From an uncultured Bacteroidales bacterium (GTDB taxonomy: Bacteria > Bacteroidota > Bacteroidia > Bacteroidales > Bacteroidaceae), in NCBI GenBank assembly GCA_902768125.1, contig CACXKA010000009.1, positions 29,603-93,602 of the forward strand: a DNA stretch of 64,000 nucleotides, read 5' to 3'. Shown piece by piece: positions 2,145 through 63,810 of this stretch (position 1 is the stretch's first letter; each line of letters starts with the position of its first letter). The position numbers and the translations under genes were made by a program. Under the pieces are notes generated by a model. The model had not been told where the DNA came from. It saw nothing but the letters and a program-made list of their open reading frames with translations, and did not search any database.

Positions 2145-3349
2145 AGTTCTATGTAATCGGCATCACCGACAAACCACACCCGTTCTTTCCTCCCGATGTA
2201 CTGAACGTGATTCAGAGTGGACACACTTTCTCTGGTGGCAAGCGTCACCATGAGATTGTCACCCCATACCTTCCCGATGGGGCTGAGTGGATTGACATCA
2301 CAGCTCCCCTCACAGCAGTCTATGAGCAGTATCAACACTCAACCCTCCATACTCCACAGTCAACCATCATCGTCTTTGCCTCGGGCGACCCTCTCTTCTT
2401 CGGCTTTGCCAACACGCTCAAACGTGTATTTCCCGATGCAGAGATGAAGGTCTTTCCCACCTTCAACTCCCTACAGATGCTGGCACATCGCCTACTGATG
2501 CCCTACCATGACATGCATGTCGTCTCCCTCACAGGTCGCTCATGGCAGGAGTTCGACCGTGCCCTTATCGAAGGGGCTTCTCCTATAGGCATCCTGACCG
2601 ACAAGGAACATACTCCTGCCGCCATTGCCCAGCGTATGCTCGAATTTGGCTATACCGATTACACCATGCATATTGGGGAACATCTGGGTAATCCCCAACA
2701 CGAAAAGCTTTCTATCCTCCCATTGGAACAGGCATCCCAGCAGGACTTTTCCATGCCCAACTGCCTTATCCTCATAGGTGCTCACCCACGAAGATGGGGT
2801 ATTCCCGACCACGAATTCGCTCTTCTCGACCATCGAGAGAAGATGATCACCAAGATGCCTATCCGAATCCTTTCCCTACAGGCACTCGATTTGCCTCGCC
2901 GTCATACGCTATGGGACATTGGCTTCTGTACGGGCAGCATCAGTATAGAAGCCCGTTTGCAGTTTCCACACCTTCACATCGAGGCTTTCGATATCCGACC
3001 TGATTGCGAAGCTCTTCTTCGGGAGAATGCGCGCCGTTTTGGAGCACCTGGCATCAATATGCACATCGGCAACTTCTTGGAAGCTGACATCACATCTTTG
3101 CCCCGTCCTGATGCTGTTTTCATCGGTGGTCATGGCGGGCAGCTCAAAGACATCCTCAAGAAGGTGCTGACCGTATTGACCGATGACGGATGTATCGTGA
3201 TGAATAGCGTGAAAGCCCCCAAGGTCTTGACCGACAGTCACCAGCTTTGGGACGAGGCTTGCGAAGAACTTGGTTTGATACAAGATGCACCTTCCAAAAT
3301 CATATTGAACGAAAACCATCCAATCGAGATACTAAAATGCAGCAAATAG
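2141..3349 (+). CDS. cobL: Precorrin-6Y C5,15-methyltransferase (decarboxylating), CbiE-CbiT
   Basis: This 402-residue protein combines CbiE (residues 1-225; FASGDPLFFG loop at about 79-88) and CbiT (residues 235-402). The CbiT SAM motif I reads DIGFCTGS at 259-266, where DIGxGTGS is usual, so the second glycine is replaced by cysteine. CobL methylates C5 and C15 and removes the C12 acetate carboxyl group of the corrin ring. The chain contains a low-complexity stretch (QHSTLHTPQST, residues 65-75) encoded by five degenerate 7-bp repeat units at 2333-2367. It sits just before the conserved FASGDP loop and looks like an insertion. The gene overlaps its upstream neighbour by 4 bases and the downstream one by 13. 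Confidence 0.92.
   Translation: MKFYVIGITDKPHPFFPPDVLNVIQSGHTFSGGKRHHEIVTPYLPDGAEWIDITAPLTAVYEQYQHSTLHTPQSTIIVFASGDPLFFGFANTLKRVFPDAEMKVFPTFNSLQMLAHRLLMPYHDMHVVSLTGRSWQEFDRALIEGASPIGILTDKEHTPAAIAQRMLEFGYTDYTMHIGEHLGNPQHEKLSILPLEQASQQDFSMPNCLILIGAHPRRWGIPDHEFALLDHREKMITKMPIRILSLQALDLPRRHTLWDIGFCTGSISIEARLQFPHLHIEAFDIRPDCEALLRENARRFGAPGINMHIGNFLEADITSLPRPDAVFIGGHGGQLKDILKKVLTVLTDDGCIVMNSVKAPKVLTDSHQLWDEACEELGLIQDAPSKIILNENHPIEILKCSK
2333..2367 (+). repeat. Degenerate 7-bp tandem repeat inside cobL
   Basis: Five consecutive heptads (CAACACT, CAACCCT, CCATACT, CCACAGT, CAACCAT) lie in the CbiE coding region. The period of seven is not a codon multiple, so gain or loss of one unit would shift the frame. 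Confidence 0.6.
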
Positions 3350-4833
3350 CAGTCATACAAATCAATGAGGCTGGCAAAGATATCGCATTCTTGCTTCAGC
3401 GTCAGTTTAGTGCCCAAATCATACAACGAACAGATGTAGGTGAGTATTGGAACGACTTTGATGCTTTCATCTTCATCGGAGCGATGGGTATTTGTGTTCG
3501 CACTATTGCTCCCTATATCAAAGACAAGCATGAAGATCCTGCGATTGTATGTATCGACAGTCTGGGGAAGAACGTCGTCTCCGTTCTCTCTGGACATATC
3601 GGAGGTGCCAACGACCTGACCCGTCAAGTAGCCACCCTCCTCGAAGCCAATCCCGTCATCACTACCCAAAGCGACAACGCTGGTTTGTGGGCGCTCGACA
3701 CGTTGGAGAAGCGCTTCGATTGGTCTATTGCCAGTGGCATAGAAGATATGAACGACTGCATTTTTGCTTTTGTCAATCGTCAACCCACCGCTTTGCTTTT
3801 AGAGGTAAAAGATGAGGGCACCGACTATCTGGAGAAGACGCTTCCAACCCATGTGACCCTCATCAATGACATCAAAGAAGCCACGTCTGACAAGTACAAG
3901 TTACTCATTATCGTGTCACCTTTCAATCTGCCATATCCTGCCAATATGCTGGTTCTGCATTTTGTGCCGATGGTGGGAACGATAGGCTTTGGATTAGCAC
4001 ATCATCCACAGGATTACAAACAGATATATGACGAGATCAACCAGGCATTTGCCGAGCGAGGTATCTTGCCATGTTCCCACCGTTATTGTACCATTGACGT
4101 GAAGGCTGAAGAACCCTTTGTGGACGAGTTGAGGAATGTGTATCACGAAGATGTGGTGTTCTTCACCGCGGATGAACTGGCGAAAGTTGAAGTGCCCAAT
4201 CCCAGCACTACTGTTGAGAAGCATGTGGGCACGCCCAGTGTATGTGAGGCAGCCGCTATCATAGGGTCTAATTATGGTGAACTCATCATTCCTAAGGTGA
4301 AAGGCAAGAACTGGACAGCAGCCCTCGCCATCGACAAGCAACATCTCAAATCTCAAACCTCAAACTCCCAATCTCACATTGAGATTGTGGGTGCTGGTCC
4401 TGGCGACCCCGACCTCGTGAGTGTTCGTGGACGAAAAATGTTGGAGAAGGCAGACCTGATTCTCTATGCAGGTTCTCTGGTGCCCAAGGCATTGACTGAA
4501 TGTCACAAGCCCGGTGCAGTAGTGCGTTCGTCTGCCGACATGAACCTCGAAGAGCAATGTGCCCTCATGAAGGATCATTACGACCAAGGTCATTTCATCG
4601 TTCGTTTACACACGGGAGATCCTTGCATCTTCGGTGCTATTCAGGAGCAGATGGCATTCTTCGATCGGCATCAGATGTCCTATCACATCACCCCAGGCAT
4701 TTCTTCCTTCCTTGCTGCTGCTGCTGAGTTGAGAAGTCAGTTCACCATTCCAGAACGTACACAGACCATCATCCTTACACGAGGCGAGGGGCGTACTCCT
4801 ATGCCGGAAAAGGAGTGCAGCCATCGTGGATGA
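3337..4833 (+). CDS. CbiG fused to a truncated CobM/CbiF methyltransferase
   Basis: The start is placed at ATG 3337 (MQQIAVIQIN), inside the last codons of cobL, because codons upstream in this frame show no homology. Residues 1-310 are CbiG, the cobalt-precorrin-5A hydrolase that opens the lactone ring: FIGAMGICVRTIAPYI and VLSGHIGGAN are typical. A linker of 7-bp repeats (4341-4375) follows. Then comes the start of CobM/CbiF, the C11-methyltransferase (VGAGPGDPDLVSVRG, LYAGSLVP, HTGDPCIFGA, TPGISSF, TRGEGRTPMPEKE). After PEKE the frame runs into a stop at 4831-4833, while the CobM C-terminus continues in another frame from 4814. A CobM needs the later residues for its fold, so the methylase half is probably inactive unless this is a sequencing error. 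Confidence 0.88.
   Translation: MQQIAVIQINEAGKDIAFLLQRQFSAQIIQRTDVGEYWNDFDAFIFIGAMGICVRTIAPYIKDKHEDPAIVCIDSLGKNVVSVLSGHIGGANDLTRQVATLLEANPVITTQSDNAGLWALDTLEKRFDWSIASGIEDMNDCIFAFVNRQPTALLLEVKDEGTDYLEKTLPTHVTLINDIKEATSDKYKLLIIVSPFNLPYPANMLVLHFVPMVGTIGFGLAHHPQDYKQIYDEINQAFAERGILPCSHRYCTIDVKAEEPFVDELRNVYHEDVVFFTADELAKVEVPNPSTTVEKHVGTPSVCEAAAIIGSNYGELIIPKVKGKNWTAALAIDKQHLKSQTSNSQSHIEIVGAGPGDPDLVSVRGRKMLEKADLILYAGSLVPKALTECHKPGAVVRSSADMNLEEQCALMKDHYDQGHFIVRLHTGDPCIFGAIQEQMAFFDRHQMSYHITPGISSFLAAAAELRSQFTIPERTQTIILTRGEGRTPMPEKECSHRG
4341..4375 (+). repeat. Degenerate 7-bp tandem repeat in the CbiG-CobM linker
   Basis: Five heptads (ACATCTC, AAATCTC, AAACCTC, AAACTCC, CAATCTC) encode the linker LKSQTSNSQSH between the two fused enzymes, exactly at the domain border. 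Confidence 0.6.
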
Positions 4834-5092
4834 TGTCCAGAAGGAACTGTTGCAGGAATATCCAGCCGACACACCTGTCGCTGCTTGCTATCACCTCACA
4901 TGGCCTGACCAGAAGATTTATCGTGGGCAATTGAAGGACTTGGCAAAGATTGTACATGACAATCACCTGACCCTGACCACCATGCTCGTCGTAGGCGAAG
5001 CCATCGACAACCGTCACGGCTTTTCAGAACTATACAACAAAAACTTCACCCATCTTTTCCGGACGGGTGAAGATACTATTCAAATCGGGTGA
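4814..5092 (+). pseudogene. Frameshifted C-terminal part of CobM/CbiF
   Basis: This frame encodes SAAIVDDVQKELL followed by the conserved CobM tail (YPADTPVAACYHLTWPDQ, IYRGQLKDL, TMLVVGEAI). The preceding gene carries the first part of the same domain in another frame. Comparing the two parts with the usual CobM layout (GRTPxPE, then about 20 residues ending in a LSA motif, then the helix seen here), the bases for roughly 15-20 residues appear to be missing at about 4810-4816, and the frame changes there. The stop at 5090-5092 lies inside a 22-bp tandem repeat, so the natural end may also have been altered. A GTG at 4826 could start a short free protein, but that is unlikely to be functional. 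Confidence 0.8.
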
Positions 5093-5125
5093 AGATACTA
5101 TTCAAATCGGGTGAAGATAGTATTC
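5064..5125 (+). repeat. 22-bp tandem repeat, about 2.8 copies
   Basis: The 22-base unit starting CGGGTGAAGATACTATTC occurs perfectly at 5064-5085 and 5086-5107 and then degenerates from 5108. It spans the stop codon of the broken cobM and reaches to within a few bases of the convergent GH30 gene end. Confidence 0.85.
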
Positions 5126-5129
5126 GCTA

Positions 5130-7706: not shown

Positions 7707-9491
7707 ATGGTATTAGTTTTTGGTGGCACGACCGAGGGGCGCAAGGCGATAGAGGCGCTTGAGGAGGCTGGCAACACGTTCTACTACAGCACGAAGACGG
7801 GCGAGCAGGACGTGCCGCTCCATCACGGTGTTGCCATCAGCGGAGCCATGGACGCAACCGCCATGACCGTTTTCTGCCAGAAGCATGGCATCAGACTCTT
7901 GGTCGATGCTGCCCATCCTTTTGCCGAGGTGCTGCACCAGACCGTGGCGAACGTGGCAGAGAGATTGAACATCCCAGCCATACGTTTCGAGCGCATCTTC
8001 CCCGCCAGAGACCCTGACATCACATGGATTGATTCCTACGCCTCCCTCATCTCACACCTCTCCCCCCAAAACTGTCAACTGTCAACTGTCAACTGTCAAC
8101 TTTCCACCCTCCTTGCCACCACCGGTGTGCAGAGCATCGCCCAACTAAAACCTTTGGAAGAACAAGGCGTGAAGGTGTATTATCGCATTCTTCCAAGAGA
8201 ATCATCCATTGCTTTGGCAAAGAAACAGGGTGCTGTTGATGAACAACTCTGCTACTATGAAGACCCTAGGGAGATTCCTGTGAATGCGGATGCCATCCTG
8301 CTGAAAGAGAGTGGGTCAACTGGCGGTTTTCAGGAGAAGGTGAAGGCGGCAAAGGCATTGGGTATGCAGATCTATGCCATCAAGCGTCCTGAAACACCCA
8401 CTATTTTTCATTGTGTGAATGGGGAACATGGTCTCAGGCGGATGGTGGAAAAACTGCTTCCCGAATTCTATCCTCTCCACAGCGGACTGACTACAGGCAC
8501 TTGTGCTACAGCGGCAGCCATTGCAGCAACTACCCGTTTGCTCAAAGGGGAAACACCACAAGAAGTGCCCGTCATCCTCCCCAACGGCGAAACCATCATG
8601 GTCCCCGTCGGATATGGAGAAGACTACGCCTACTGCATCAAGGAAGCAGGCGACGACCCCGACGTGACGGATGGCATCGAAGTGAGGGCAGAGGTGAGGC
8701 AAGTCGACCAATTTGAAATATGTGGTGGCGAAGGCGTGGGCAGATTCACTTTGCCAGGTTTCGACTATCCTCCAGGCGAGCCTGCCATCAACAAAGCACC
8801 TCGTCAAATGATTCGCCAGAATCTGGAGAAACTGTCAACTGTTAATTGTCAATTGTCAATTACCCTCTCTGTTCCTCAAGGTGAAGAAATTGCCCGTCAC
8901 ACCTTCAATCCCCGTCTTGGCATTGAAGGTGGCATCAGCATCATCGGTGTGTCAGGCATCGTCAAACCCTTCTCGGAGGAAGCCTTCATCGAGAGCATCC
9001 GCAAGTGTATGGAGGTGGCGAAGGCAAGTGCTTCGGAACGAATCGTGTTGCATAGTGGCATGAAGAGTGAAGGATTCTTACAGGACCACTATCCCCATCT
9101 CCCTCAACAGGCGTTTGTGGAGTATGGCAATGCCATTGGTGCCGCCTTGCAAATTGCTGACGAACTCCACATTCCCCGCATCACCCTCGGCATCATGTTG
9201 GGCAAAGCTGTGAAACTGGCAGAGGGACACCTCGACACCCACAGCAAAAAACAGACGATGAACAAAGCGTTCATCATCCAGATGTTAGAAGAGTCAGGCT
9301 GTGACACCAAGGTCATCGAACAAATAACAAGCATCACCTTGGCACGCGAACTCTGGGGCATCATCCCCTCCGAACAGATAGAAACCTTTTGCCGCACCGT
9401 CATCCGCCATTGCCTGACGCATTGCGCCCCCCTCCTGCCACACGGCGACCTCACCATCCTTCTGATAGACGACGCTGGCGGCATCCATTAA
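7707..9491 (+). CDS. Fused precorrin-6x reductase (CobK/CbiJ) and CbiD C1-methyltransferase
   Basis: The 594-residue fusion begins with CobK (residues 1-250; VLVFGGTTEGRKAIEAL start, LVDAAHPFA, LLKESGSTGGF), which reduces the corrin macrocycle. It continues with CbiD (about 252-594; SGLTTGTCATAAA, DDPDVTDG, GGISIIGVSGIV, ITLGIMLGKAVKLAEGH), the cobalt-precorrin-5B C1-methyltransferase of the anaerobic route. Two low-complexity insertions break the domains: NCQLSTVNCQLST at residues 123-135 and STVNCQLSIT near residue 380. Both are encoded by four copies of the same 7-bp unit. The frame is intact in this copy. The gene completes steps missing from the first block, but cobI/cbiL, cbiA and late genes are not in the window. 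Confidence 0.92.
   Translation: MVLVFGGTTEGRKAIEALEEAGNTFYYSTKTGEQDVPLHHGVAISGAMDATAMTVFCQKHGIRLLVDAAHPFAEVLHQTVANVAERLNIPAIRFERIFPARDPDITWIDSYASLISHLSPQNCQLSTVNCQLSTLLATTGVQSIAQLKPLEEQGVKVYYRILPRESSIALAKKQGAVDEQLCYYEDPREIPVNADAILLKESGSTGGFQEKVKAAKALGMQIYAIKRPETPTIFHCVNGEHGLRRMVEKLLPEFYPLHSGLTTGTCATAAAIAATTRLLKGETPQEVPVILPNGETIMVPVGYGEDYAYCIKEAGDDPDVTDGIEVRAEVRQVDQFEICGGEGVGRFTLPGFDYPPGEPAINKAPRQMIRQNLEKLSTVNCQLSITLSVPQGEEIARHTFNPRLGIEGGISIIGVSGIVKPFSEEAFIESIRKCMEVAKASASERIVLHSGMKSEGFLQDHYPHLPQQAFVEYGNAIGAALQIADELHIPRITLGIMLGKAVKLAEGHLDTHSKKQTMNKAFIIQMLEESGCDTKVIEQITSITLARELWGIIPSEQIETFCRTVIRHCLTHCAPLLPHGDLTILLIDDAGGIH
8072..8099 (+). repeat. Perfect CTGTCAA x4 heptad repeat in cobK
   Basis: Four perfect copies of CTGTCAA lie in the reading frame and encode the repeated peptide NCQLSTV. 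Loss or gain of one to two units would shift the frame. Confidence 0.9.
8832..8859 (+). repeat. CTGTCAA-type heptad repeat in cbiD
   Basis: Four units (CTGTCAA, CTGTTAA, TTGTCAA, TTGTCAA) related to the repeat at 8072 interrupt the CbiD part of the same gene. Confidence 0.85.
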
Positions 9492-9540: not shown

Positions 9541-9572
9541 CTTCATCTATCATTTATCATTTAGCGCAGCGC

Positions 9573-26930: not shown

Positions 26931-26950
26931 TCTGTCTATTCTATTTTTCT

Positions 26951-26985
26951 TTAACCTTTAACCTATAACCTTTAACCTTATAACC
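26951..26985. repeat. Heptad repeat TTAACCT x5
   Basis: Five consecutive 7-bp units (TTAACCT, TTAACCT, ATAACCT, TTAACCT, TATAACC) fill the space between mutS2 and the PD40 gene, three bases before the mutS2 stop codon. Confidence 0.85.
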
Positions 26986-26987
26986 GT

Positions 26988-39679: not shown

Positions 39680-39752
39680 GTGCAAAAAATCGAGTCCGTG
39701 AATAGAATGAGACTATTTTTTCATTTTTGCTGTTGAGATGCCCCCCCAATCT

Positions 39753-39822
39753 CTTGAACCTTGAACTTTTGAACTCTTGAACTCTTTAACCGATAACCTA
39801 TAATCGATAACCTTTAACCTTT
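39753..39822. repeat. Degenerate 7/8-bp tandem repeats
   Basis: Units of the type CTTGAAC/TTTTGAAC grade into CGATAAC/CTTTAAC units, nine or so in all, in the divergent spacer between DUF5063 and the esterase. Confidence 0.75.
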
Positions 39823-39897
39823 ATTTTTTCCCTCCAATTAAACCAACTCCCATAGACTTAGTCTAAACCAGTAGCATTTTATTTTCAATTATTATAG

Positions 39898-40860: not shown

Positions 40861-40933
40861 CCCTAACCTTGAACTTTTGAACTCTTGAACCCTTACCCAA
40901 CCGATAACCGATAACCTCTAACCGATAACCGAC
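40861..40933. repeat. Degenerate 7/8-bp tandem repeats
   Basis: CCTTGAAC-type octads followed by CGATAAC/CTCTAAC heptads fill the spacer between the esterase terminator and the aldo/keto reductase promoter, like the array at 39753. Confidence 0.75.
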
Positions 40934-41007: not shown

Positions 41008-41955
41008 ATGGAAGGACAGTATTCAGCCAACCCCAACCGCTACGAAAGCGGAATGCAATACGAGCGTTGCGGACGCTCAGGAGTCCTGTTGCCCAAGGTG
41101 AGTCTGGGCTTCTGGCACAACTTCGGAGCCGTTGATTCTTATGATCGCAGTCGCGAAATCGTGCGCTATGCCTTCGACCACGGCATCACCCATTTCGACC
41201 TCGCCAACAACTACGGTCCCCCTTACGGTTCAGCCGAAGAGACGCTCGGACGATTGATGGACGACGACTTCCGTCCCTATCGCGATGAACTCTTCATCTC
41301 CACCAAAGCAGGCTATGACATGTGGCAGGGACCCTATGGCAATTGGGGAAGCCGCAAGTATCTGATGGCATCGCTCGACCAATCCCTTCGCCGCATGAAA
41401 CTGGATTATGTCGACCTCTTCTATAGTCACCGCTACGACCCCGAAACCCCATTGGAAGAGACGCTACAGGCACTCGTCGATGTGGTCCGACAGGGGAAAG
41501 CCCTCTATGTCGGCATCAGTCGCTGGCCCTTGGAGGCAACCCGTTTCGCCGCCCAATATCTGAAAGAGCGCGATGTGCCCCTGCTCATCTATCAGGGACG
41601 CCTGAATATGCTCGACCGTGCTCCGATGGAAGAAGGTATTCTCGACTTCTGTGCACAAGAAGGCATTGGCTTCATCTCCTTCTCACCCTTGGCACAAGGT
41701 CTGCTCACCGACCGCTATCTGAATGGCATCCCAGAGGACAGCCGAATGTCCAAAGGCAAGTTCCTGAAAGCATCCATGCTCACCCCCGAACTGCTGTCCC
41801 AGTTGCAGCAATGGAACCACCAAGCCAGTGAACATGGCATGACCTTGGCAGAAATGGCGCTCACCTGGATTCTCCAACAGCACGCCGTCACCTCCGTCCT
41901 GATCGGCGCCAGCTCTACCCTCCAACTCTCCAACAACCTCCGCTGCCTCAAATGA
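41008..41955 (+). CDS. YghZ-type aldo/keto reductase, C-terminally shortened
   Basis: The start ATG at 41008 (MEGQYSANPNRYESGMQYE) follows the promoter. The 315-residue protein has the AKR barrel: LPKVSLGFWHNFGAVDSYD, the catalytic Asp/Tyr segment FDLANNYGPPYGSAEETLG, STKAGYDMWQGPYGNWGSRKYL, the catalytic His in FYSHRYDPETPLEETLQAL, and the cofactor-binding SVLIGASSTLQLSNNL. It resembles YghZ (L-glyceraldehyde-3-phosphate reductase), which is about 345 residues. Here the protein stops at SNNLRCLK, some 25 residues early, and a heptad array begins at the first base after the stop. The lost tail normally covers the active site, so specificity may have changed. Confidence 0.88.
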   Translation: MEGQYSANPNRYESGMQYERCGRSGVLLPKVSLGFWHNFGAVDSYDRSREIVRYAFDHGITHFDLANNYGPPYGSAEETLGRLMDDDFRPYRDELFISTKAGYDMWQGPYGNWGSRKYLMASLDQSLRRMKLDYVDLFYSHRYDPETPLEETLQALVDVVRQGKALYVGISRWPLEATRFAAQYLKERDVPLLIYQGRLNMLDRAPMEEGILDFCAQEGIGFISFSPLAQGLLTDRYLNGIPEDSRMSKGKFLKASMLTPELLSQLQQWNHQASEHGMTLAEMALTWILQQHAVTSVLIGASSTLQLSNNLRCLK

Positions 41956-42016
41956 CGATAACCGATAACCGCTAACCTTACACAGATTTCACAGATTCCA
42001 CAGATTTCACAGATTA
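41956..42016. repeat. Heptad and 9-bp tandem repeats directly after the reductase stop codon
   Basis: CGATAAC, CGATAAC, CGCTAAC (41956-41976) are followed by four 9-bp units of the type CACAGATTT (41981-42015). The array begins immediately after the TGA at 41953-41955. Confidence 0.85.
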
Positions 42017-42086
42017 TTTTTGTTTTAACCACGAATAACACGAACCTTTAGCTCGACGGAGTCAATCGCACGAATTGATTTTTTAG

Positions 42087-42225
42087 ATGGATGCAATTTG
42101 TGTGAATGAACACACAAGAGTGTGATAGGACTACTGTCACTCTGAGAGCAAGCTTTCAAGATGACAGATGTCATAACGCACTAATGCACAAAGCTATGGC
42201 ATTGTGCGGCATCCATTGTTTTTTT
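42087..42225 (+). ncRNA. Cloverleaf-like inverted-repeat element
   Basis: ATGGATGC (42087-42094) pairs with GCATCCAT (42209-42216). Inside are three hairpins: TTGTGTG/CACACAA (42098-42117, perfect), CTGTCA/TGACAG (42134-42167), and GCACTAATGC/GCATTGTGC (42178-42207, one bulge). Eight Ts follow on the plus strand, which suits an RNA ending there, but no convincing promoter was found. A small non-autonomous mobile element is the alternative, although no target-site duplication is obvious. It lies between two convergent genes, so it could also simply stop transcription. Confidence 0.4.
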
Positions 42226-46160: not shown

Positions 46161-46195
46161 GTTTATAGTTTATAGTTTATAGTTTATAGGTTATA
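46161..46195. repeat. Heptad repeat GTTTATA x5
   Basis: Four perfect GTTTATA units and one GGTTATA lie between the glucosaminidase stop and the shared terminator. Confidence 0.9.
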
Positions 46196-46203
46196 GCAAA
46201 TAA

Positions 46204-46260: not shown

Positions 46261-47280
46261 TTAGTTGGCTGCTTCGAATTCCTTGAGGAAGCGGACGTCG
46301 TTCTCTGAGAAGAGACGAAGGTCCTTGACCTGGTATTTGAGGTTGGCAATACGCTCGATACCCATTCCGAAGGCATAGCCTTTGTACTTGGTGGAGTCGA
46401 TGCCATTGGCTTCGAGCACGTTGGGGTGAACCATGCCACATCCAAGGATTTCAAGCCAGCCTGAGCCTTTACACATGCTACAACCCTTGCCCTTGCAGAG
46501 CGTACAAGATACGTCCATCTCAGCACTTGGCTCTGTGAAGGGGAAGTAGGAAGGACGGAGACGAATCTGAGTGTCCTCGCCAAACATCTCCTTGGCAAAG
46601 AGAAGGAGCACTTGCTTGAGGTCGGTGAAGCTCACCTGCTCATCAACGTAGAGTCCTTCCACCTGATGGAAGAAGCAATGGGCACGGGCAGAGATGGCTT
46701 CGTTGCGATACACACGACCTGGGCACAACACACGGATAGGGGGCTGTTGCTTCTCCATCACACGTGCCTGTACGGAACTGGTGTGGGTGCGCAGGATGAT
46801 GTCAGGATGTGCCTCCACGAAGAAAGTGTCCTGCATATCGCGAGCAGGGTGGTCGTCGGCAAAGTTCATGGATGAGAACACGTGCCAGTCGTCTTCCACT
46901 TCAGGACCTTCTGCGAGAGAGAAACCCAGACGAGAGAAGATGTCGATGATCTCGTTCTTCACGAGGGTGAGCGGATGACGGGTGCCCAGACTGATAGGAT
47001 AGGCTGTGCGGGTGATGTCGAGGTGGTTCACCTCTGTCTCCTGCACAGAGAAGTTGTCGCGAAGGGCATTGATTTTATCCTGTGCCTTGTTCTTCAGTTC
47101 ATTGATCTTGATGCCGATTTCCTTCTTCTGGTCGGCTGGCACATTGCGGAAGTCTGCCATGAGGGCTGTGATAGCTCCCTTCTTGCTCAAGTATTTGATA
47201 CGAAGCTGTTCAATCTCTTCAGCTGAGTGTGCCTCGAGACCTTCCACTTCTGTGAGTAAACTTTGAATTTTGTCTAACAT
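46261..47280 (-). CDS. pheS: Phenylalanine--tRNA ligase alpha subunit
   Basis: The 339-residue protein has the N-terminal coiled coil that grips the tRNA (LRIKYLSKKGAITALMADFRNV), then the class II catalytic domain: GTRHPLTLVKNEIIDIFSRLGF, DMQDTFFV, the motif 2 region YRNEAISARAHCFFHQVEGLYV, RLRPSYFPFTEPSAEMDVSC and the motif 3 end AFGMGIERIANLKY. It attaches phenylalanine to tRNA-Phe as an alpha2beta2 enzyme. The beta subunit gene (pheT) is not adjacent, which is usual in Bacteroidetes. A good -7 box (47317-47325) sits 36 bases upstream, back to back with the promoter of the DUF4348 gene. Confidence 0.96.
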   Translation of the reverse strand: MLDKIQSLLTEVEGLEAHSAEEIEQLRIKYLSKKGAITALMADFRNVPADQKKEIGIKINELKNKAQDKINALRDNFSVQETEVNHLDITRTAYPISLGTRHPLTLVKNEIIDIFSRLGFSLAEGPEVEDDWHVFSSMNFADDHPARDMQDTFFVEAHPDIILRTHTSSVQARVMEKQQPPIRVLCPGRVYRNEAISARAHCFFHQVEGLYVDEQVSFTDLKQVLLLFAKEMFGEDTQIRLRPSYFPFTEPSAEMDVSCTLCKGKGCSMCKGSGWLEILGCGMVHPNVLEANGIDSTKYKGYAFGMGIERIANLKYQVKDLRLFSENDVRFLKEFEAAN

Positions 47281-47316: not shown

Positions 47317-47325
47317 GCAAAGATA
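47317..47325 (-). promoter_or_regulatory. Promoter -7 box for pheS
   Basis: TATCTTTGC on the minus strand, 36 bases before the start codon. Confidence 0.65.
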
Positions 47326-47339
47326 CGAAAAAAACTGTG

Positions 47340-47367
47340 AACTCCTAACTTCTAACTCCTAACTTTT
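47340..47367. repeat. Heptad repeat AACTCCT-type x4 between divergent promoters
   Basis: AACTCCT, AACTTCT, AACTCCT, AACTTTT abut the -7 box at 47371 and occupy the place where its upstream promoter element should be. Confidence 0.85.
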
Positions 47368-47370
47368 GTT

Positions 47371-47379
47371 TATCTTTGC
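47371..47379 (+). promoter_or_regulatory. Promoter -7 box of the DUF4348-murB-MBL operon
   Basis: TATCTTTGC lies 18 bases before the ATG at 47398. Its upstream element is replaced by 7-bp repeats. Confidence 0.6.
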
Positions 47380-47397: not shown

Positions 47398-48240
47398 ATG
47401 CGAAAAGGTTTAGTTATAGCAACTGCAATGGGTTGTCTTCTCTTTTCTTGTCAAGATAAGAAGATGACGAATGCCTTCGATCAGGACGGCGATGAGGAGG
47501 GCGACTCGCTGGAGGCTTATGTGGGCGACACGCTCCATCTTTTTGACGAGAATGAGCCTCCTGCGACGGTGGATGAACTGTTCGACGACTTTTTCTACAA
47601 CTTCATTGATGACGCCAAGTTTCAAGGTCAGCGCATCGTGTTTCCTTTGCCCTACAAGGAAGGTCAAGAGGAAGAGAAACTCTCGAAGCAGGATTGGCCG
47701 CATTACGACCATTTCAAGCATCAGGAGCTGCTGTCTGTGATTTATGAACGTGAGCAGGATTATGAACTGTCGAAGGACACGTCGATGCAGAGCGTGACGG
47801 TGGAATGGATAGGACTGAAGGAGGACTTGGTGCAGAACTTCCGCTTCAAGCGTCTGAACGACAAGTGGATGCTGACGGAAATTGACAAGCACGGAAGGAA
47901 TGAGATGCCGACTGGGGATTTCCTGAACTTCTATGCCCGATTTGTTGCCGACAGTGTGTTCCAGCGTGAGGCGTTGGCTGACCCTGTGAAGGTGATTCTC
48001 ACGTCGGAAGATGGGGAAGATGAACCTGAGGAGGAGCATGTGAACCCAGACGAGTGGTTTGAGATGAAGGAGAGCCTGCCGTTGCCAACGGATGCCATCG
48101 TGAATGTGAATTATGGACAGGCAAGCATCAGCCAGAACAAGAAGATTCTCCTGATTCAGGGACTTGGCAATGGTATGCAGATGAAGTTCAAGTTCAACAA
48201 GCAGAGCGATGACTGGAAACTGACTGAAATAGAATATTGA
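47398..48240 (+). CDS. DUF4348-type lipoprotein
   Basis: The 280-residue protein has a lipoprotein signal ([18 protein letters not shown]). The mature part is very acidic at first ([14 protein letters not shown]), then has the DUF4348 pattern with two similar halves: [25 protein letters not shown] and [27 protein letters not shown], each followed by a W-x-LTEI-like strand ([10 protein letters not shown] and WKLTEIEY). Proteins of this family are exported and of unknown function. The murB start codon overlaps its stop by one base (TGATG), so the genes are coupled. Confidence 0.78.
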
Positions 48241-51386: not shown

Positions 51387-51404
51387 CCCTCTTCCCATTA
51401 TAAT

Positions 51405-51535
51405 CTCTAAACTCTAATCTCTAAACTCTAATCTCTAAACTCTAATCTCTAAACTCTAATCTCTAAACTCTAAACTCTAAACTCTAATCTCTAAACTCTA
51501 ATCTCTAAACTCTAATCTCTAAACTCTAATCTCTA
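51405..51535. repeat. Long heptad array CTCTAAA/CTCTAAT, about 19 units
   Basis: Nearly perfect alternation of CTCTAAA and CTCTAAT spans 131 bases between two convergent genes. The stop codon of the minus-strand gene (51533-51535) is formed inside the last unit. Confidence 0.95.
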
Positions 51536-53040: not shown

Positions 53041-54189
53041 CTATTCTGCAGCATGACTTAATATCTCATCTTCTATAGAATAATGATATGGAATATGGGG
53101 ATAACTTTTGAATCGAATGAGGTCAATAACATCTGAAATATTATTGAAAGAAATAGGACTCGGAACGAAAGCTATCTTGAAATTCACGAGCGATGCTTGA
53201 TAATCTGCCATACTTTTGGTCATATAATCCATGTCTCTTAATAATTTCTCCATATACTTTAGGCAACCAGAACAGATTTTCAGCTTCGCTTGTAATTCTT
53301 GTTTAGAATACACTCTATAAATAGCATAATCCGTGTTCTTCTTCTCTGTTATAAATCTTATTTCATTTTTGCTTATTATCACAGCTTGTTCAAACTCATG
53401 TTCTGTGGTCTTCACATCAATCCATTGTTCCAAACCATTCGAATGCTTAATATAGAAATCGTATGGTTTACCTTGCTCAGAACTTTGATTCATCCATACA
53501 AAATCCGAGACTAATCCTTCAAACCTTTGTTTGTTCAAGTGTTCATTGATGAAAGCCTCGCCTTGTTTGCCAATTTCATTAATATAGCTTTTCGCTTTCT
53601 TTACATCCGCATCCTTGAATTTCGGATTCTCGGCTTCAAGTTCCACCGATAGTTCCAAATCCTTTTGTAATTCAACGGAAGTGTTTTCTATTCTACTTTG
53701 AACGTATTGTAGAACTTTCGAAAAGACAAAATCATCACGTTTTAATATGACGATTTTTCTATCTTTTAGATGAGTGAGATCACAATAATCATTTAAGAAA
53801 TTGTAATCATATGAACTTTCTTCTATAAGCCAGAATACAGGTGTGAGACTATCTAACCCAAACCAAAATAGATAGAAATCTTTGTCTTCCGACATTTTGG
53901 CAAATGCACGTATTTTGTTCACTACATTTTCATTCTTTCTTCCCATTGAAATTTTGGGCGCGTCATATCTTCCATCGGCTCTATGGATTTTGGCTATTTC
54001 ACAATTCAGAATATCACAATAGCCTTTATAGATAAGCATAGCGGAATACTCCGTTTTGTCATCTGGCATAAACGTTAAACTATCATTTGACAGCCCGATA
54101 TGGGTTTGATGTGACACACTCCTTTTTAGATCTGCATTTGATAGCCTTTTATAGGATATCTTACCTTCTTTGTGAATCTCGAATAGCAT
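53041..54189 (-). CDS. Probable restriction endonuclease with a DUF3883-like nuclease domain
   Basis: The 382-residue protein has an unrecognised N-terminal part (1-190) and a C-terminal domain resembling DUF3883: INEIGKQGEAFINEHLNKQ, PYDFYIKHSNGLEQWIDVKTTEHEFEQAVIISKNEIRF, TDYAIYRVYSK. In this PD-(D/E)xK-like layout, Glu of GEAF, Asp of PYDF and the D-x-K of WIDVKTT would hold the metal. It is the third gene of an operon with two cytosine methyltransferases and starts one base after the second one's stop. This makes it the natural cutting partner. The sequence is clearly AT-rich compared with the chromosome around it. Assignment as the restriction enzyme rests on this context. Confidence 0.72.
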   Translation of the reverse strand: MLFEIHKEGKISYKRLSNADLKRSVSHQTHIGLSNDSLTFMPDDKTEYSAMLIYKGYCDILNCEIAKIHRADGRYDAPKISMGRKNENVVNKIRAFAKMSEDKDFYLFWFGLDSLTPVFWLIEESSYDYNFLNDYCDLTHLKDRKIVILKRDDFVFSKVLQYVQSRIENTSVELQKDLELSVELEAENPKFKDADVKKAKSYINEIGKQGEAFINEHLNKQRFEGLVSDFVWMNQSSEQGKPYDFYIKHSNGLEQWIDVKTTEHEFEQAVIISKNEIRFITEKKNTDYAIYRVYSKQELQAKLKICSGCLKYMEKLLRDMDYMTKSMADYQASLVNFKIAFVPSPISFNNISDVIDLIRFKSYPHIPYHYSIEDEILSHAAE

Positions 54190-54190
54190 G

Positions 54191-55261
54191 CTAATATAGG
54201 TATTGATTATGGATTAAATAATACATAACTGCATAGATGGTATTTACACTAACCGCATTACCAGCTTGTTTGTATAATGCTCCATCCGAAACACCTGCAT
54301 TTCTTGCATTGATGGCGAATTCAGGAGGGAATCCTTGCAACATAAAAGCTTCTTCAGGCGTAATCTTTCTGATTGGCATCTGGGCAAGTTGCTCCTTCGT
54401 CATATGATCAACAGGGTTGACTGCCCCGTTGGTGTCAATAAAGTCTTGGCTGTAATAATTGTCTTGACAAGCTCTGTGCATCTTGTGCATTGAAGCCGTA
54501 AGCGTCCTCGCTATAATTTGGTTAATATCTGATTTAGACCGGAATCCACCAGAACCGTCTGAAAGAATAGTTGGTTTTATTTTATCAGAAAGGAAATATT
54601 TCGGTTCCACTTGATGTTCCAACAAATCTAACACCGTATTATAATGGGATACGCCTAAATCTTGATAATGTTCATTAAAGAGTGTTGCTACATTCTCAGG
54701 AGTAAACATCTCTGCTGCATTATCTGGAAGGGGATGTGTCGTTGCAAATATCAAGACCCTCCTCCTTCTTTGAGGCAGATGGTAGTCCTGGGTGTCAAAT
54801 ATGTTACTAATCACATTGTATCCCAGATTATGTAGTTCTTCTTCTATTCTTGCAAAAGTGTTACCCCCATCATGTATATAAAGATTCTTCACATTCTCCA
54901 ATAATACATTCGCGGGATGTTTTACGGCAAGAATATCCGTGATTCTAAAGAATAGTTGACCTCTGTCTTCTTCAAAACCAGCTTGATTACCCATGACACT
55001 AAAGGTCTGGCAAGGGAATCCTCCCGATAGGAAATCAAAATCCGGAAGATTCTCAATGTTGTGAGGGGTAGCCGTAAAATTTACAATATCGCCCAATACT
55101 ACTTCACCTTGGGTGTCATAATTTGTTCTATAAGTCAGAGCTGCTTTGGCATCAATTTCAGAATAGCCAACACTTTCAAAATCCATTACACCATCATTGG
55201 TTAACAGATCTAACGCCCTTCTAAAGCCGCCTATTCCCGAAAATAATTCTAAGTGTGTCAT
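54191..55261 (-). CDS. DNA cytosine-C5 methyltransferase 2 of the restriction-modification operon
   Basis: The 356-residue protein has the C5-methyltransferase motifs in order: I (LELFSGIGGFRRAL), IV with catalytic Cys (DFLSGGFPCQTFSVMGNQ), VI (VLLENVKNL), VIII (YHLPQRRRRVLIFA), IX region (ARTLTASMHKMHRACQDN) and X (ALYKQAGNAVSVNTI). The target-recognition region lies between VIII and IX. It overlaps the upstream methyltransferase gene by four bases. Two C5 enzymes together with one nuclease suggest an asymmetric recognition site, with one enzyme for each strand. Confidence 0.93.
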   Translation of the reverse strand: MTHLELFSGIGGFRRALDLLTNDGVMDFESVGYSEIDAKAALTYRTNYDTQGEVVLGDIVNFTATPHNIENLPDFDFLSGGFPCQTFSVMGNQAGFEEDRGQLFFRITDILAVKHPANVLLENVKNLYIHDGGNTFARIEEELHNLGYNVISNIFDTQDYHLPQRRRRVLIFATTHPLPDNAAEMFTPENVATLFNEHYQDLGVSHYNTVLDLLEHQVEPKYFLSDKIKPTILSDGSGGFRSKSDINQIIARTLTASMHKMHRACQDNYYSQDFIDTNGAVNPVDHMTKEQLAQMPIRKITPEEAFMLQGFPPEFAINARNAGVSDGALYKQAGNAVSVNTIYAVMYYLIHNQYLY

Positions 55262-56394
55262 TGCAGGAATTTCATAATGCCATCACCTATTGCTTTGGCA
55301 AGTTTAACAGGAACAGCATTGCCGACTTGGGCATACCACATGTTTTGTGCTCCCGTGATAACATAATCATCGGGAAAGGTCTGAATACGAGCGGCTTCTC
55401 TTGGACTTAACCCACGAGCTTCCCACGGATGTATATACATGTTGCAATCAAACTTCATGTGTGAAGTGATTGTCTTGCATATTTGGTTCTCGTCTAATTT
55501 GAAATATTTATCCTTGAAAATGTCATTGCGACGCTTGTATGGCATAATGTCGGCAATGGACTCATGGAGAGAGTTCGCTCCTTGTGGCAATCTTCTAAAA
55601 ATCTCAAGGTCTCTTTCGTTGTTGTACCGGTTCTTGTGATTGTACAATTTGGTTATCACTTTATCACCATTGATGAAATGATAGAAGTCTGTTTGGGGAT
55701 ATTCAAAATCCCTTTCCGTCAATCCGGAATTTATATCTTCAACTCCAATTTGACCTTTACCTTTCTTCGCTTCAAGATGTGGTAAACCATATAAGGCATC
55801 CCGTAACACAAAAGGCTCACGCTTTAGTTTATTGATTTCTTCGAATATTTCCCTTGTTGGTATCCCCATGCGGTTACCAATCATAATAAAGCGTTCCCGA
55901 TTTTGAGGAACACCAAAATCTTGCGCTTTTAATACAGCATAATCATATGTATATTCTATTCCAAGATATTCTGTGAAATTCTGAATTATTTCATCTTTCT
56001 TGTTCATCATCCCCTTCACATTTTCCATGATGAAAAATTGGGGTCGAACGTGACTGAGAAAAATCAGGTATTGCTTATATAAGCTATTGCGAGGGTCGTC
56101 AAGGATTCGTTGCCTGTTAGCCATAGAAAAGCCCTGGCAAGGTGGTCCGCCACATACAAGAGTTATGTCTGAGAGAATTTCTTTATATTCATCGATATTC
56201 TCATTTAGCGTGACAATATTGCCTATAAAATAATGTTCATCCGACAAATCATGATTAGTCTTGTATGTATTGGCAAATTGTTCAACAATCTCATTTACAA
56301 ACCATGGCGTGAAACCTGCTTGCTCCAATCCTAGACTAAGACCACCACAACCAGCGAACAGGTCTACCATTTTGTATTGTTTTTCCTTTGACAT
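55258..56394 (-). CDS. DNA cytosine-C5 methyltransferase 1 of the restriction-modification operon
   Basis: The start ATG at 56394 (MSKEKQYKMVDLFAGCGGLS) lies two bases after the T tract of a leader hairpin; codons upstream in the frame belong to the structured leader. The 378-residue protein carries motif I (VDLFAGCGGLSLGLEQAG), IV (LVCGGPPCQGFSMANRQR), VI (FIMENVKGM), VIII (FGVPQNRERFIMIG) and X (WYAQVGNAVPVKLAKAIG). It is the first gene of the modification/restriction operon. Having the methyltransferases before the nuclease lets protection precede cutting. Confidence 0.93.
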   Translation of the reverse strand: MSKEKQYKMVDLFAGCGGLSLGLEQAGFTPWFVNEIVEQFANTYKTNHDLSDEHYFIGNIVTLNENIDEYKEILSDITLVCGGPPCQGFSMANRQRILDDPRNSLYKQYLIFLSHVRPQFFIMENVKGMMNKKDEIIQNFTEYLGIEYTYDYAVLKAQDFGVPQNRERFIMIGNRMGIPTREIFEEINKLKREPFVLRDALYGLPHLEAKKGKGQIGVEDINSGLTERDFEYPQTDFYHFINGDKVITKLYNHKNRYNNERDLEIFRRLPQGANSLHESIADIMPYKRRNDIFKDKYFKLDENQICKTITSHMKFDCNMYIHPWEARGLSPREAARIQTFPDDYVITGAQNMWYAQVGNAVPVKLAKAIGDGIMKFLQ

Positions 56395-56395
56395 G

Positions 56396-56501
56396 AAAAA
56401 AGCCCTCTCTTTGGTTTCGAAAAAAGAGGGGCGTGGAAGAGATGTGTTTAACCAAGGCTTAGCACAGCCCACATCAGACAACAATCCAACTGTCCACGCC
56501 C
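56396..56501 (-). promoter_or_regulatory. Terminator-like structured leader directly before the methyltransferase start
   Basis: Read on the minus strand, a nine-pair stem (GGGCGTGGA/TCCACGCCC; 56493-56501 with 56429-56437) encloses nested stems (56441-56446 with 56470-56475; 56456-56459 with 56466-56469). Next comes a hairpin with CCCTCT/AGAGGG arms (56425-56430 with 56403-56408) followed by six Us (56396-56401). The U tract ends one base before the ATG. The two stems share bases 56429-56430. This looks like an attenuator. The ligand or signal is unknown. Confidence 0.5.
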
Positions 56502-56625
56502 GTATGAGCGCAAACATCCAACTGCTTGTCCGACTGATGTGTCTATGAAGTGCTAATTCTGGTTAATCAGTCAATCAAGGATGTCAAAGTCGCTAGTTAA
56601 TTCTTATTCTTTTCTTTTCCATTTA

Positions 56626-57860: not shown

Positions 57861-57923
57861 GCGGGTTATTTCTCAATAAGGGTGGGTTATTGGAAAATAA
57901 GCGTGGGTTATTGGGGGAGAGGG
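57861..57923. repeat. 21-bp repeat with GGGTTATT core, three copies
   Basis: GGGTTATT recurs at 57863, 57884 and 57905, exactly 21 bases apart, with similar flanks. A multiple of three keeps frames open on both strands, producing spurious open frames. Confidence 0.8.
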
Positions 57924-58038: not shown

Positions 58039-58045
58039 CTCGCTG

Positions 58046-59056: not shown

Positions 59057-59058
59057 AA

Positions 59059-59976: not shown

Positions 59977-60014
59977 CTGATTCCAAGTAGAGAATCGCGA
60001 TGTTCTAAAAATAC

Positions 60015-60188: not shown

Positions 60189-60206
60189 ACATATACTAAG
60201 ACAAGT

Positions 60207-60755
60207 ATGAGCACTAAGAAACAAACAACAACAGCCCAGTCCCTGCCAAGCGGGCATACGGCTACCTACATCACTCGTCCCAAGACGAAGCCGGACGAGA
60301 GCCTAAAAGGCAAAATGAATAAGTGGAACAATGGCTACGCCGAATTTATTCCACAAGGTACGCGTGAGAATCAACGTGAGATGCTCAAGCAGTTGGGCGA
60401 CTCGAGTTTCTACAAAACCACAGGGAAGAAGGACTCTTCGTGGAGCGTTCACCTGAATTGTGATGGGAAATCTGAAGACCCAGTGGGTGAACTACTCGAC
60501 CAGTTCCTCGTTCTGACGGAGAGCCAGCGCAAGACATTGCCCAAACTTCCCGAAGGTTCAGAGGGACGCATGCTCCTCGACAACGGGCAAGGGCTGAAGA
60601 TTTGGCTCGACCGTGAGCGTGGCAAGGTCAGCATCCTAACGGAATTGGATTGTGGACCAAACATCGAACGCCAGCTGTTGCAGGCTGAGGGTCAGATGAA
60701 TGTTGCTATCGGTCGCCACAGACAGGAGATAGTAAACCTAAGTAATAATTATTAA
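60207..60755 (+). CDS. Unknown protein at the head of the primase-like operon
   Basis: The start ATG at 60207 (MSTKKQTTTAQSLPSGHTAT) fits a 182-residue soluble protein. Codon use is again GC-richer than the pair upstream. Visible parts are YITRPKTKPDESLKGKMNKWNNGYAEFIPQGTRENQREML, FLVLTESQRKTLPKLPEGSEGRMLLDNGQGLKIWLDRERGKV and a helical end. I recognise no family. The next gene starts on the last base of its stop codon (TAATG), so it is part of the same unit and may be an accessory factor of the primase-like protein. Confidence 0.65.
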   Translation: MSTKKQTTTAQSLPSGHTATYITRPKTKPDESLKGKMNKWNNGYAEFIPQGTRENQREMLKQLGDSSFYKTTGKKDSSWSVHLNCDGKSEDPVGELLDQFLVLTESQRKTLPKLPEGSEGRMLLDNGQGLKIWLDRERGKVSILTELDCGPNIERQLLQAEGQMNVAIGRHRQEIVNLSNNY

Positions 60756-61537
60756 TGTATAGTAGTATGGAAAAGAATTGGCGTTTCGTTTGGCAGGCAA
60801 ACATATATTGGGCTTCGTGCGAACCTTGCACGGCTGCGGTGTTCTCCACGCAGGTGCGAAGTGCACAGGTGAACTGGAAAATCAGCACACGCAGGGCGAT
60901 CATCAAGGCTGTGCGCGAGGGACTCCCTCTGGATGAATGGACTCGTCGCAGCGACTATCAGCGGTGGTGCATTGAACAGTTGGCAAAGCCTCGTGCTGGT
61001 GAGAAGTTCGCTATGAAACCAGAGCCGCTGCGTTTGCTACAGTGGGGCGAGGAACTGAAAACATCGCTGTCTGGATTTGTTTATGGCGTGCGTGAGTTTG
61101 CGCTGGTGCCAAAGCTGGATAAGAATGGCAATCCCAAATTGGATTCTAGTGGAAAGCAAATCATGTATCGACGCCGTAAGCAAGAGAACGTGACGCATCT
61201 GAGTGGATTGTTTATGAGCGACTATGATCACTTGCCTTTCGACCCTCGCGAACTGTATGAAAAGACGAAGCAGCCTGGGTATCCTTGGAAAACCTGTCTG
61301 GCTCACTTGACCAGTTCGGGAGAAGGGTTGCGTCTGGTGAGCGAGTGCCTGCTTGGTATGGGTAACATTGCTGACCAGCAATATCTCCAGGCGCAGGAGC
61401 TTGGGATGCTGAATGTCATTGGAACTACTGGCAAACATGTCACTGATAACAGTTGTGTGAATTGCGACAAATTCTCATTCTGTCCCCGTGAAGAGGACAT
61501 CCTCTATATCGATGAAGACAAGCTATTTCACATATAA
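60755..61537 (+). CDS. Primase-like protein with VirE N-terminal (BT4734-type) domain
   Basis: The ATG at 60755 overlaps the previous stop; an ATG at 60767 (MEKNWRFVWQ) is an alternative. The 260-residue protein matches the BT4734/VirE N-terminal domain family: RAIIKAVREGLPLDEW, THLSGLFMSDYDHLPFD, in which the aspartates of the D-x-D step would bind metal, and AHLTSSGEGLRLVSE, the S-x-G-x-GL-R motif. The fold belongs to the archaeo-eukaryotic primase group. The tail has a C-x2-C...C-like cluster (CVNCDKFSFC), perhaps zinc binding. With the DUF3987 protein next to it, it forms the two-gene module often found in Bacteroides genomes. Confidence 0.75.
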   Translation: MYSSMEKNWRFVWQANIYWASCEPCTAAVFSTQVRSAQVNWKISTRRAIIKAVREGLPLDEWTRRSDYQRWCIEQLAKPRAGEKFAMKPEPLRLLQWGEELKTSLSGFVYGVREFALVPKLDKNGNPKLDSSGKQIMYRRRKQENVTHLSGLFMSDYDHLPFDPRELYEKTKQPGYPWKTCLAHLTSSGEGLRLVSECLLGMGNIADQQYLQAQELGMLNVIGTTGKHVTDNSCVNCDKFSFCPREEDILYIDEDKLFHI

Positions 61538-61568
61538 TTTATTTTATTAACTACTAAATTTTAAGAAG

Positions 61569-63560: not shown

Positions 63561-63571
63561 TGTTTCGGTAA

Positions 63572-63590
63572 TATTGCATTATTGCATTGC
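63572..63590 (+). repeat. Perfect 19-mer, copy C
   Basis: Same 19 bases as copy A, twelve bases after the DUF3987 stop codon. Together with the inverted copy B it brackets the block 58216-63590. Confidence 0.95.
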
Positions 63591-63632
63591 ATTTGATTTT
63601 TCGTTTTCCATAGTGTAATTTTATGGCGTGGA

Positions 63633-63660
63633 GGGGTGTCTGTCGTGAGACAGTTGCCCC
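63633..63660 (+). terminator. Terminator of the primase-like operon
   Basis: GGGG...CTGTC pairs with GACAG...CCCC around a GTGA loop, followed by T-rich sequence. Confidence 0.7.
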
Positions 63661-63760
63661 TTGTTTCTTCTCTTTCGTTACTTAATTTATCACTCTAAAA
63701 AAACTGATAAAAACATTGAAAATAATTGTTTTATTATTTGGCGGTTTCGGAAATATTTCG

Positions 63761-63769
63761 TACCTTTGT
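63761..63769 (+). promoter_or_regulatory. Promoter -7 box for the last gene
   Basis: TACCTTTGT with TTGG at 63738-63741, 20 bases upstream. A leader of about 160 bases follows. Confidence 0.6.
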
Positions 63770-63782
63770 AATGTAATTAAAA

Positions 63783-63810
63783 GTTTAGAGTTGAGGGTTT
63801 AGAGTTGAGA
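63783..63810. repeat. Heptad repeat GTTTAGA/GTTGAGG x4 in a leader
   Basis: GTTTAGA, GTTGAGG, GTTTAGA, GTTGAGA lie just downstream of the promoter at 63761, in what should be the untranslated leader. Confidence 0.85.

Follow-up and report, generated by a model that had tools for sequence, protein, structure and literature searches.

The window analyzed here, a 64,000-nucleotide stretch of contig CACXKA010000009.1 from an uncultured Bacteroidales bacterium, carries a series of degenerate tandem arrays with a 7-bp unit, one of which is set in register with a promoter box. This array lies between pheS, encoding the alpha subunit of Phe-tRNA synthetase (46261-47280, minus strand), and a DUF4348 gene (47398-48240). 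On the plus strand, an A-tract is followed by five AACT cores at 47333, 47340, 47347, 47354, and 47361, the last unit reading AACTTTT (47329-47367), and 3 bp past the array stands a predicted sigma-ABfr-type -7 box, TATCTTTGC (47371-47379, plus strand), with the start codon (ATG) of the DUF4348 gene 18 bp further on. A divergent -7 box (47317-47325, minus strand; GCAAAGATA on the plus strand) faces pheS. The stretch 47329-47379 is the window's full example of the layout described below.

Period-7 arrays in the window and its host genome

The host genome of the window (G000), which is Prevotella-like, is a 2.78-Mb draft in 41 contigs and was sampled as the window plus 40 further stretches, 854 kb in total. 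Arrays were detected with Tandem Repeats Finder (score at least 30), dinucleotide-shuffled blocks served as the control, and genes were called for placement with a simple codon-usage caller. Codes of the form Gnnn denote genomes, with one genome per species in genus comparisons (G400 is the sister species of G000), and those of the form Lnnn denote loci or stretches. A preliminary description of the window had proposed a class of 7-bp repeats that would fall if period 7 showed no genome-wide excess. The excess is present, with 77 period-7 arrays against 0.3 in shuffled sequence, and tandem 7-bp units beyond chance are what defines long heptamer simple sequence repeats. Periods 14 (32 vs. 4.7) and 21 (20 vs. 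0.7) are likewise in excess, and period 8, which has the same theme as period 7, ranks second among short non-triplet periods (30 vs. 1.0), with milder excesses at periods 11 (28 vs. 12.0) and 10 (11 vs. 6.3). Exact lag-7 runs of at least 10 occur five times in the window, against 0.1 per shuffle. Eleven of the 12 positions named in the preliminary description were recovered as period-7 (or period-14) arrays, while no array was found at 2333, where the sequence of a methyltransferase-domain gene only loosely resembles one. The 854 kb hold 108 arrays of the seven family, 22 of them within predicted genes, in sequence of which 84% is coding.

These arrays had been thought to share a period and not a sequence, a view that does not hold. 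In a 454-kb sample, AAC occurs in 37 of 56 intergenic array words (15.1 expected), TAA in 36 (15.5 expected), and GGTTA in 15 (1.1 expected); strong enrichment is also seen for AACC, GTTA, and AACT, and ATG hardly occurs (1 vs. 12.2 expected). When 373 units were aligned on the RTT core, mismatches to the consensus of their own array numbered seven at the third base and 63 at the sixth, and this AAY/RTT core is common to the arrays. The words themselves recur: 103 independent sites use 40 distinct words, so that 226 pairs of sites have the same word where random drawing gives 8.4, and some words are found in more than one species. Composite blocks are also common to unlinked loci, an example being the inverted octamer arrays that three divergent promoters have in common. 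Selection of words for low self-folding was considered and set aside, the mean being -1.34 against -1.58 for permuted words, with weaker folding in only 25 of 60 and no clear effect.

The arrays also have a typical length. Lengths peak at 30-34 bp (47 of 108 arrays); the median is 32 bp for promoter, in-gene, and stop-codon arrays alike and 31 bp for the others, and phased AAC runs of three, four, five, six, seven, eight, and nine units were counted 18, 29, 17, 2, 1, 1, and 1 times, respectively. Paired arrays are mostly inverted: for pairs up to 200 bp apart in G000, the better match was inverted in 20 and direct in three, and the sums over 11 genomes are 62 and 22, or 20 and 1 at an arm match of at least 0.8. 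The two arms of L014 are fully complementary to each other, as are those of L021, though the two loci differ by one unit.

Arrays in register with promoter boxes

Placement was assessed for 141 arrays of 7- or 8-bp units, with random placement as the expectation. A sigma-ABfr-type -7 box lies within 12 bp of the array end in 23 of them (3.2 expected), a stop codon lies within 10 bp of 31 (6.4 expected), and 27 lie within genes. The excess at stop codons is partly automatic, because an open reading frame (ORF) that enters a stop-bearing array must end there, and it is therefore not built on here. At a lower threshold, a TAnnTTTGY box was found within 40 bp of 27 of 140 intergenic arrays (15.4 expected); 21 of these 27 are 5-9 bp from the box, and in 23 the AAC-type strand is the promoter sense. 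The last AAC stands at exactly 7 from the -7 box in 11 of 16 AAC runs with a box within 60 bp (six genus genomes). Across the genus, the pattern GCAAAGNTA-N{3,28}-GTT x3 occurs in 31 of 45 genomes, with 275 overlapping matches against 6 for the reversed control (both summed).

Array promoters lack the -33 TTTG. At a spacing of 17-23, it was found in none of 21 array promoters and in 103 of 278 array-less promoters; a further 36 promoters of middling lag identity, six of them with TTTG, were left out of this contrast. The lock to the promoter differs among subclasses, being present in 6 of 25 AACT, 3 of 9 AATT, and 5 of 8 CACT arrays and in none of 39 AACC arrays. The idea that non-promoter arrays are copied promoters was rejected, as no ghost of a -7 box was found beside them at the right offset.

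The layout extends over Bacteroidota. A scan of one genome per species (84,980 species) with the pattern AACn4AACn4AACTTTTn3TAnnTTTGC gave at least 115 stretches, in which the -7 box and three cores are present by construction, being part of the pattern, while the A-tract and a T at -14 lie outside it. The titles among the 80 matches listed name Prevotella, Bacteroidaceae, Bacteroidales, Muribaculaceae, Alistipes, Bacteroides fragilis, Flavobacterium, and one Ignavibacteria, and the consensus over at least 118 promoter loci, nearly all titled Bacteroidota, reads A6-CTNNN-(AACTNNN)3-AACTTTT-N3-TAnnTTTGC. In columns free of the pattern, the 82 usable loci of the 80 listed stretches have the A-tract at -42 to -37, core 5 at -38 in 51 loci, core 4 at -31 in 49, and T at -14 (0.95), with core 6 in three loci and core 7 in one. 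The remaining 35 stretches (36 loci) repeat this layout, cores 4, 5, 6, and 7 being present at 29, 22, 1, and 0 loci, respectively, and for all 115 stretches combined (118 loci) the counts are 78, 73, 4, and 1. Unit counts, ORFs, and families were analyzed in 80 of the 115 stretches: among 83 loci, three, four, five, six, and eight units occur 33, 13, 35, 1, and 1 times, and in 79 of the 83 an ORF of at least 60 codons begins a median of 22 bp past the box. The exact promoter pattern was not found in viral contigs.

The promoter of gltX allows one orthologous synthetase gene to be followed through the genus. A -7 box was found at 28 of 30 gltX loci, six of which have a lag-7 array (p at most 0.0025), and the word differs between species, with four to five words in all: AACTCTA in G000 and G420, an AATTATG type in G410, a CAC type in G399, AATTRTG in G422, and AAYTCTT in G459. 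Two further arrays are borderline (G403, p 0.025; G425, p 0.033). None of the six array promoters has TTTG at the usual spacing, which is found at exactly 20 in G400, G460, G396, G401, and G416 and at 23 in G423. G400 has TTTG-N20-TACCTTTG where G000 has the array; the two are 98% identical over the gltX stretch queried, and above the box the difference reaches to three bases before it. The array common to G000 and G420 is missing as a word from G400, G460, and G410, which are closer to G000.

By Pfam, the genes behind the 14 array promoters detected in G000, all of which were examined, include gltX- and argS-type synthetases, recR, an HflX-like GTPase, a pyridoxal-phosphate enzyme, an aldolase, CinA, an integrase, two patatins, glycosyltransferases, and others. 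An aminoacyl-tRNA synthetase lies behind at least 10 of 65 array promoters, some of these 10 cases being orthologues in related species, against at least 2 of 99 array-less promoters of G000; in G000 alone the figure is 2 of 14 array promoters. These counts cover 65 of the 74 ORFs of the 82 loci and 99 of 162 array-less G000 promoters, the rest being short or past the cut, and 23 further array-less control ORFs lie outside the synthetase scan.

Turnover, in-gene arrays, and other features of the window

The proposed class was also to be abandoned if all related strains lacked the arrays, and most genomes of the genus do carry the array pattern. Of 395 Bacteroidota genomes, 244 contain a degenerate four-unit pattern, RTTNANN; within the genus it occurs in 35 of 37 (G000 included), with 0 to 686 matches per genome and none in G418 (99% complete) and G413 (88% complete). 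The reversed-pattern control for this pattern was confounded, as many heptamers fit both readings, and it was not used. At three bracketed 7/8-bp sites compared between G400 and G000, the flanks are kept; two of the sites (39751 and 40868) hold other arrays, and at the third the promoter-side array L047 is kept in G400 with small changes. Loss of mutS was rejected as the cause of the arrays, mutS1 being over the cut-off in 32 of 35 genomes and the three misses being 65-84% complete. A Y-family polymerase was also rejected, since PF00817 is found in 29 of 35 genomes without a link to array density by eye.

A stop codon is present on at least one strand in 53 of 56 array words, compared with about 59% of random words. 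In the tandem-gap arrays of G000, stop codons are antisense only in 17, sense only in 15, and on both strands in 15; in three other genomes, the corresponding counts are 8, 13, and 12, with three arrays lacking a stop. These strand counts do not support a role as an insulator that stops read-through, and this candidate was dropped.

The in-gene arrays of the window include two in a CbiJ-CbiD fusion gene (7707-9491), a homologue of which was found in 33 of 45 genus genomes. Both are in frame on the plus strand, an AACTGTC array at 8070-8101 and a TGTCAAT/AACTGTC array in the CbiD part at 8833-8861. Among 30 aligned homologues, the insertion at the 8070 array is confined to G000 and G410, with other insertions there in G462 and G414. 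The 8833 array is common to G000, G410, and G399, and other species hold other heptamers in the same loop. The loop DNA was compared in 23 of the 30 homologues, seven distant ones being left out, and its heptamers are AACTGTC (G000, G410, G399), CACTTTT (G460), AATGGTC (G395), AACTCCT/AACTCCA (G397, G411, G420), CTCCTTG (G417), and, in G462, GAATTAG/GAATGAG plus an inverted ATTCCTC array; some species, e.g., G402, G405, and G421, have no heptamers there. In L148, L163, and L164, from three other species, the loop carries a palindromic element with CCCTCTCC/GGGGAG-like arms (by eye), and a GTCGACGAT-like repeat stands in frame at another CbiJ-CbiD loop (amino acids ~183-198) in five species (L160-L163, L173). 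The AAC strand is the coding strand in 21 of 22 in-gene arrays of G000, a bias that can be explained by stop codons on the opposite strand. A further in-gene array, ATCTCAA (4343-4376, plus strand), lies in a gene (3337-4833) whose product has CbiG and tetrapyrrole methylase domains.

The remaining arrays of the window lie at varied sites. A short TCATTTA array of three copies (9543-9563, score 35) was found without an assigned strand, and a TTTAACC-type array of the AACC class (26949-26990) overlaps the 3' end of the minus-strand gene 26988-29525 by 3 bp. Two sites combine an 8-mer array with a following 7-mer array, namely 39751-39823 (CTTGAACT, then AACCGAT/AACCTTT), which is absent from the earlier list, and 40868-40932 (7-mer AACCGAT). 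Two others follow stop codons, a CGATAAC array of the AACC class directly (41956-41977) and a GTTTATA array of 5.1 copies after 7 bp (46161-46196, AAC strand minus). An exception to the usual length is the 19-unit AACTCTA/AATCTCT array that fills the gap between two convergent genes (51401-51535, plus strand). The last is a GTTTAGAGTTGAGG array at 63783-63809 (AAC strand minus).

Repeats of other kinds were also seen. A dispersed element of about 230 bp, present at 41977-42224 of the window and at L101, consists of 9-bp CACAGATTT repeats followed by a stretch resembling a miniature inverted-repeat transposable element (MITE) with inverted GGATGC/GCATCC ends (by eye); in G000 it lies past the gene 41008-41955, whereas in G400 it occupies the gap that precedes this gene. 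A tandem repeat with a 22-bp unit (5064-5125, 2.8 copies, 97% match) overlaps the end of a short predicted ORF, and 21-bp repeats with GGTTATTG and AATAAG stretches occur at unlinked loci (window 57863-57914, L014:17246, L023:14821). Three long minus-strand ORFs at 53041-56517 were missed by the codon-usage caller, and this region was perhaps recently acquired.

Interpretation and comparison with known repeat systems

The arrays are probably the product of a genome-wide process that makes heptad arrays of about 32 bp, with part of the AACT/AATT/CACT subclass forming the upstream half of promoters. Such a process, acting in the genus and in other Bacteroidota, would typically lay down four to five AAY-type cores in exact 7-bp steps, with slippage and template switching, together with copying between loci, as the likely steps. 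The arrays would spread or be re-made at many sites and survive where they are harmless, in gaps, beside stop codons, and in in-frame enzyme loops, and some of those with T at the fourth base would have become part of sigma-ABfr promoters. In the AACT form, counted from the box's first base, five cores start at -38, -31, -24, -17, and -10, with the A-tract at their head (-42 to -37). The array occupies the stretch usually contacted by RNA polymerase (spacer, -33 element, and UP region) and replaces the TTTG. Judged from their sequence, the array promoters are likely to be active, with the array itself contributing beyond the -7 box, and the array may be read by the polymerase itself or by a heptad-reading regulator. 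It may be relevant to such a reader that 7 bp is not one helical turn while three 7-bp steps make two. A bolder proposal, which we put forward only tentatively and consider rather unlikely, is that five AACT heptads form a second housekeeping architecture of Bacteroidota, read as a unit by RNA polymerase or a dedicated regulator, that replaces the -33 element and links growth genes, synthetases above all.

Several observations weigh against a promoter role. Of the 141 arrays, 118 are not promoter-locked, and even AACT arrays lie mostly elsewhere (19 of 25); in-gene arrays have the same median length as promoter arrays (32 bp), and thus length does not come from promoter function alone. The box excess within the whole 40 bp is modest (27 vs. 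15.4), the signal being the spacing. In 30 of 45 genomes, arrays of the opposite orientation likewise lie close to boxes (129 matches, summed), although by eye many of these are the distal ends of arrays flanked by divergent boxes. G000 has a clear lock and G400 a visible one, but it is thin in the samples of G402, G411, and G383. Neither a clear array nor TTTG is present at 16 of the 28 gltX promoters, and the -7 box may therefore suffice. Plain decay could account for missing fourth or fifth cores, and the promoters were called by consensus only.

Copying between loci, whether through ectopic gene conversion or through template switching, and anchored at promoters on the common -7 box, could quite possibly account for spacing and orientation through homology without any function. 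The 226 same-word pairs (8.4 expected), the composite blocks of more than 100 bp common to the unlinked divergent promoters L011, L037, and L038, the prevalence of inverted over direct pairs (62 vs. 22 over 11 genomes; 20 vs. 1 at an arm match of at least 0.8), and the two loci whose arms match perfectly despite a one-unit difference between them all point this way, as does the gltX array that G000 and G420 have in common and that the closer G400, G460, and G410 lack as a word. Set against these are the non-promoter arrays, which bear no trace of a -7 box and so are unlike copied promoters, and the different words at the same site in different species. The first proposal of a single copying mechanism stands to the extent that a common generator is plausible, given the length of about 32 bp everywhere and the words and composite blocks common to unlinked loci; but the arrays have a sequence theme and fall into subclasses that differ in position, and the promoter lock of part of one subclass need not follow from copying alone. 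It is more doubtful that the arrays are plain simple-sequence repeats, with slippage favoring 7-bp steps and promoter upstream regions being merely permissive among the sites where arrays do no harm. Mismatch repair misses loops of 7-bp size, and no mutator state is needed for slippage, since mutS1 is found in 32 of 35 genomes and the three misses are incomplete. Fast turnover relative to the sister species at two of three bracketed sites, in-frame arrays in loops of a conserved enzyme, the range from 0 to 686 matches within one genus, and a 7-nt polymerase contact, put forward earlier and recounted in PMC4679880, would also fit. Slippage accords poorly with a length distribution that peaks at 30-34 bp instead of declining, with the exact 7-bp spacing to the -7 box, with the same words at unlinked loci, and with the split between AACC and AACT by location.

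Two functional alternatives carry far less weight. Contingency loci, in which a change of copy number in a promoter array switches expression, would suit the position of the arrays at the -33 region, and Haemophilus hmw genes are reportedly under the control of heptanucleotide promoter repeats; the nearly fixed number of four to five units and the presence of gltX-, argS-, recR-, and pheS-type genes, not surface genes only, make this improbable. That the arrays are RNA binding sites of an RRM protein such as RbpB appears very improbable indeed. The two control genomes, one from a cyanobacterium and one from a Bacteroides, do have RRM_1, and both Cyanobacteria and Bacteroidetes are reported to contain heptamer repeats (PMC4679880), but RRM_1 had no match in any of 35 same-genus genomes, the array-richest included, as far as the Pfam model reaches, and was rejected as the array reader. 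In tandem gaps, moreover, there is no strand preference (24 vs. 23 in G000 and 20 vs. 16 in three other genomes).

Returning to arrays as parts of promoters, heptamer repeats have so far been known from scattered bacteria without a firm function, and one subclass now has exact coordinates relative to a promoter box, precedes genes such as tRNA synthetases, and differs in its word by species at the same promoter. The old question of why the unit is seven thus becomes open to a reporter experiment, and Bacteroidota gain a candidate second housekeeping promoter architecture. The existence of heptamer repeats is on record, but a literature search of open-licence papers found no description of the promoter layout or of promoter-locked heptamers in Bacteroidota.

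Tandem repeats of Bacteroidales reportedly include a minisatellite of Porphyromonas gingivalis (BrickBuilt), which differs in its longer units of about 22-23 bp and its position inside a transposable element, a MITE. Among heptamers, we know of no promoter lock for the short tandemly repeated repetitive (STRR) sequences of cyanobacteria. The variety of words seen here has a parallel in these sequences, with three heptamer words in one Calothrix genome (cited in PMC4692102). The GGGAATC and GGGGA(C/T)T repeats of Xanthomonas and Nostoc likewise form genome-wide, mostly non-coding heptamer arrays that vary between related species and include some inverted pairs, but they are G-rich and quadruplex-forming, with one word type per genome studied (Rehm, 2015; PMC4692102), whereas only three of 108 array words here hold GGG or CCC, and the GGG unit of quadruplex heptamers is generally lacking. 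The suggestion that such repeats were not described in Bacteroidales can be kept only in part, as two papers already report that heptamers are over-represented in bacteria and that five Bacteroidetes have TAACTGA arrays (PMC4679880; PMC4692102). The TAACTGA direct repeats of Beggiatoaceae, Cyanobacteria, and five Bacteroidetes are also 7 bp long and mostly intergenic, and the word contains AACT (MacGregor, 2015; PMC4679880). They differ in being one fixed word whose relatives are rare in the main genome, against 40 words among 103 sites here, and in lying near start codons, where they were read as translational; the available part of that paper describes neither a lock to a -7 box nor a fixed five-unit layout (PMC4679880). 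A further comparison is with the sigma-ABfr promoter of Bacteroidota, given as -33 TTTG and -7 TAnnTTTG (PMC7366714). The -7 box is the same and lies within 12 bp of 23 of the 141 arrays, while the -33 TTTG is missing from all 21 array promoters, its position being taken by an AACT-type heptad array.

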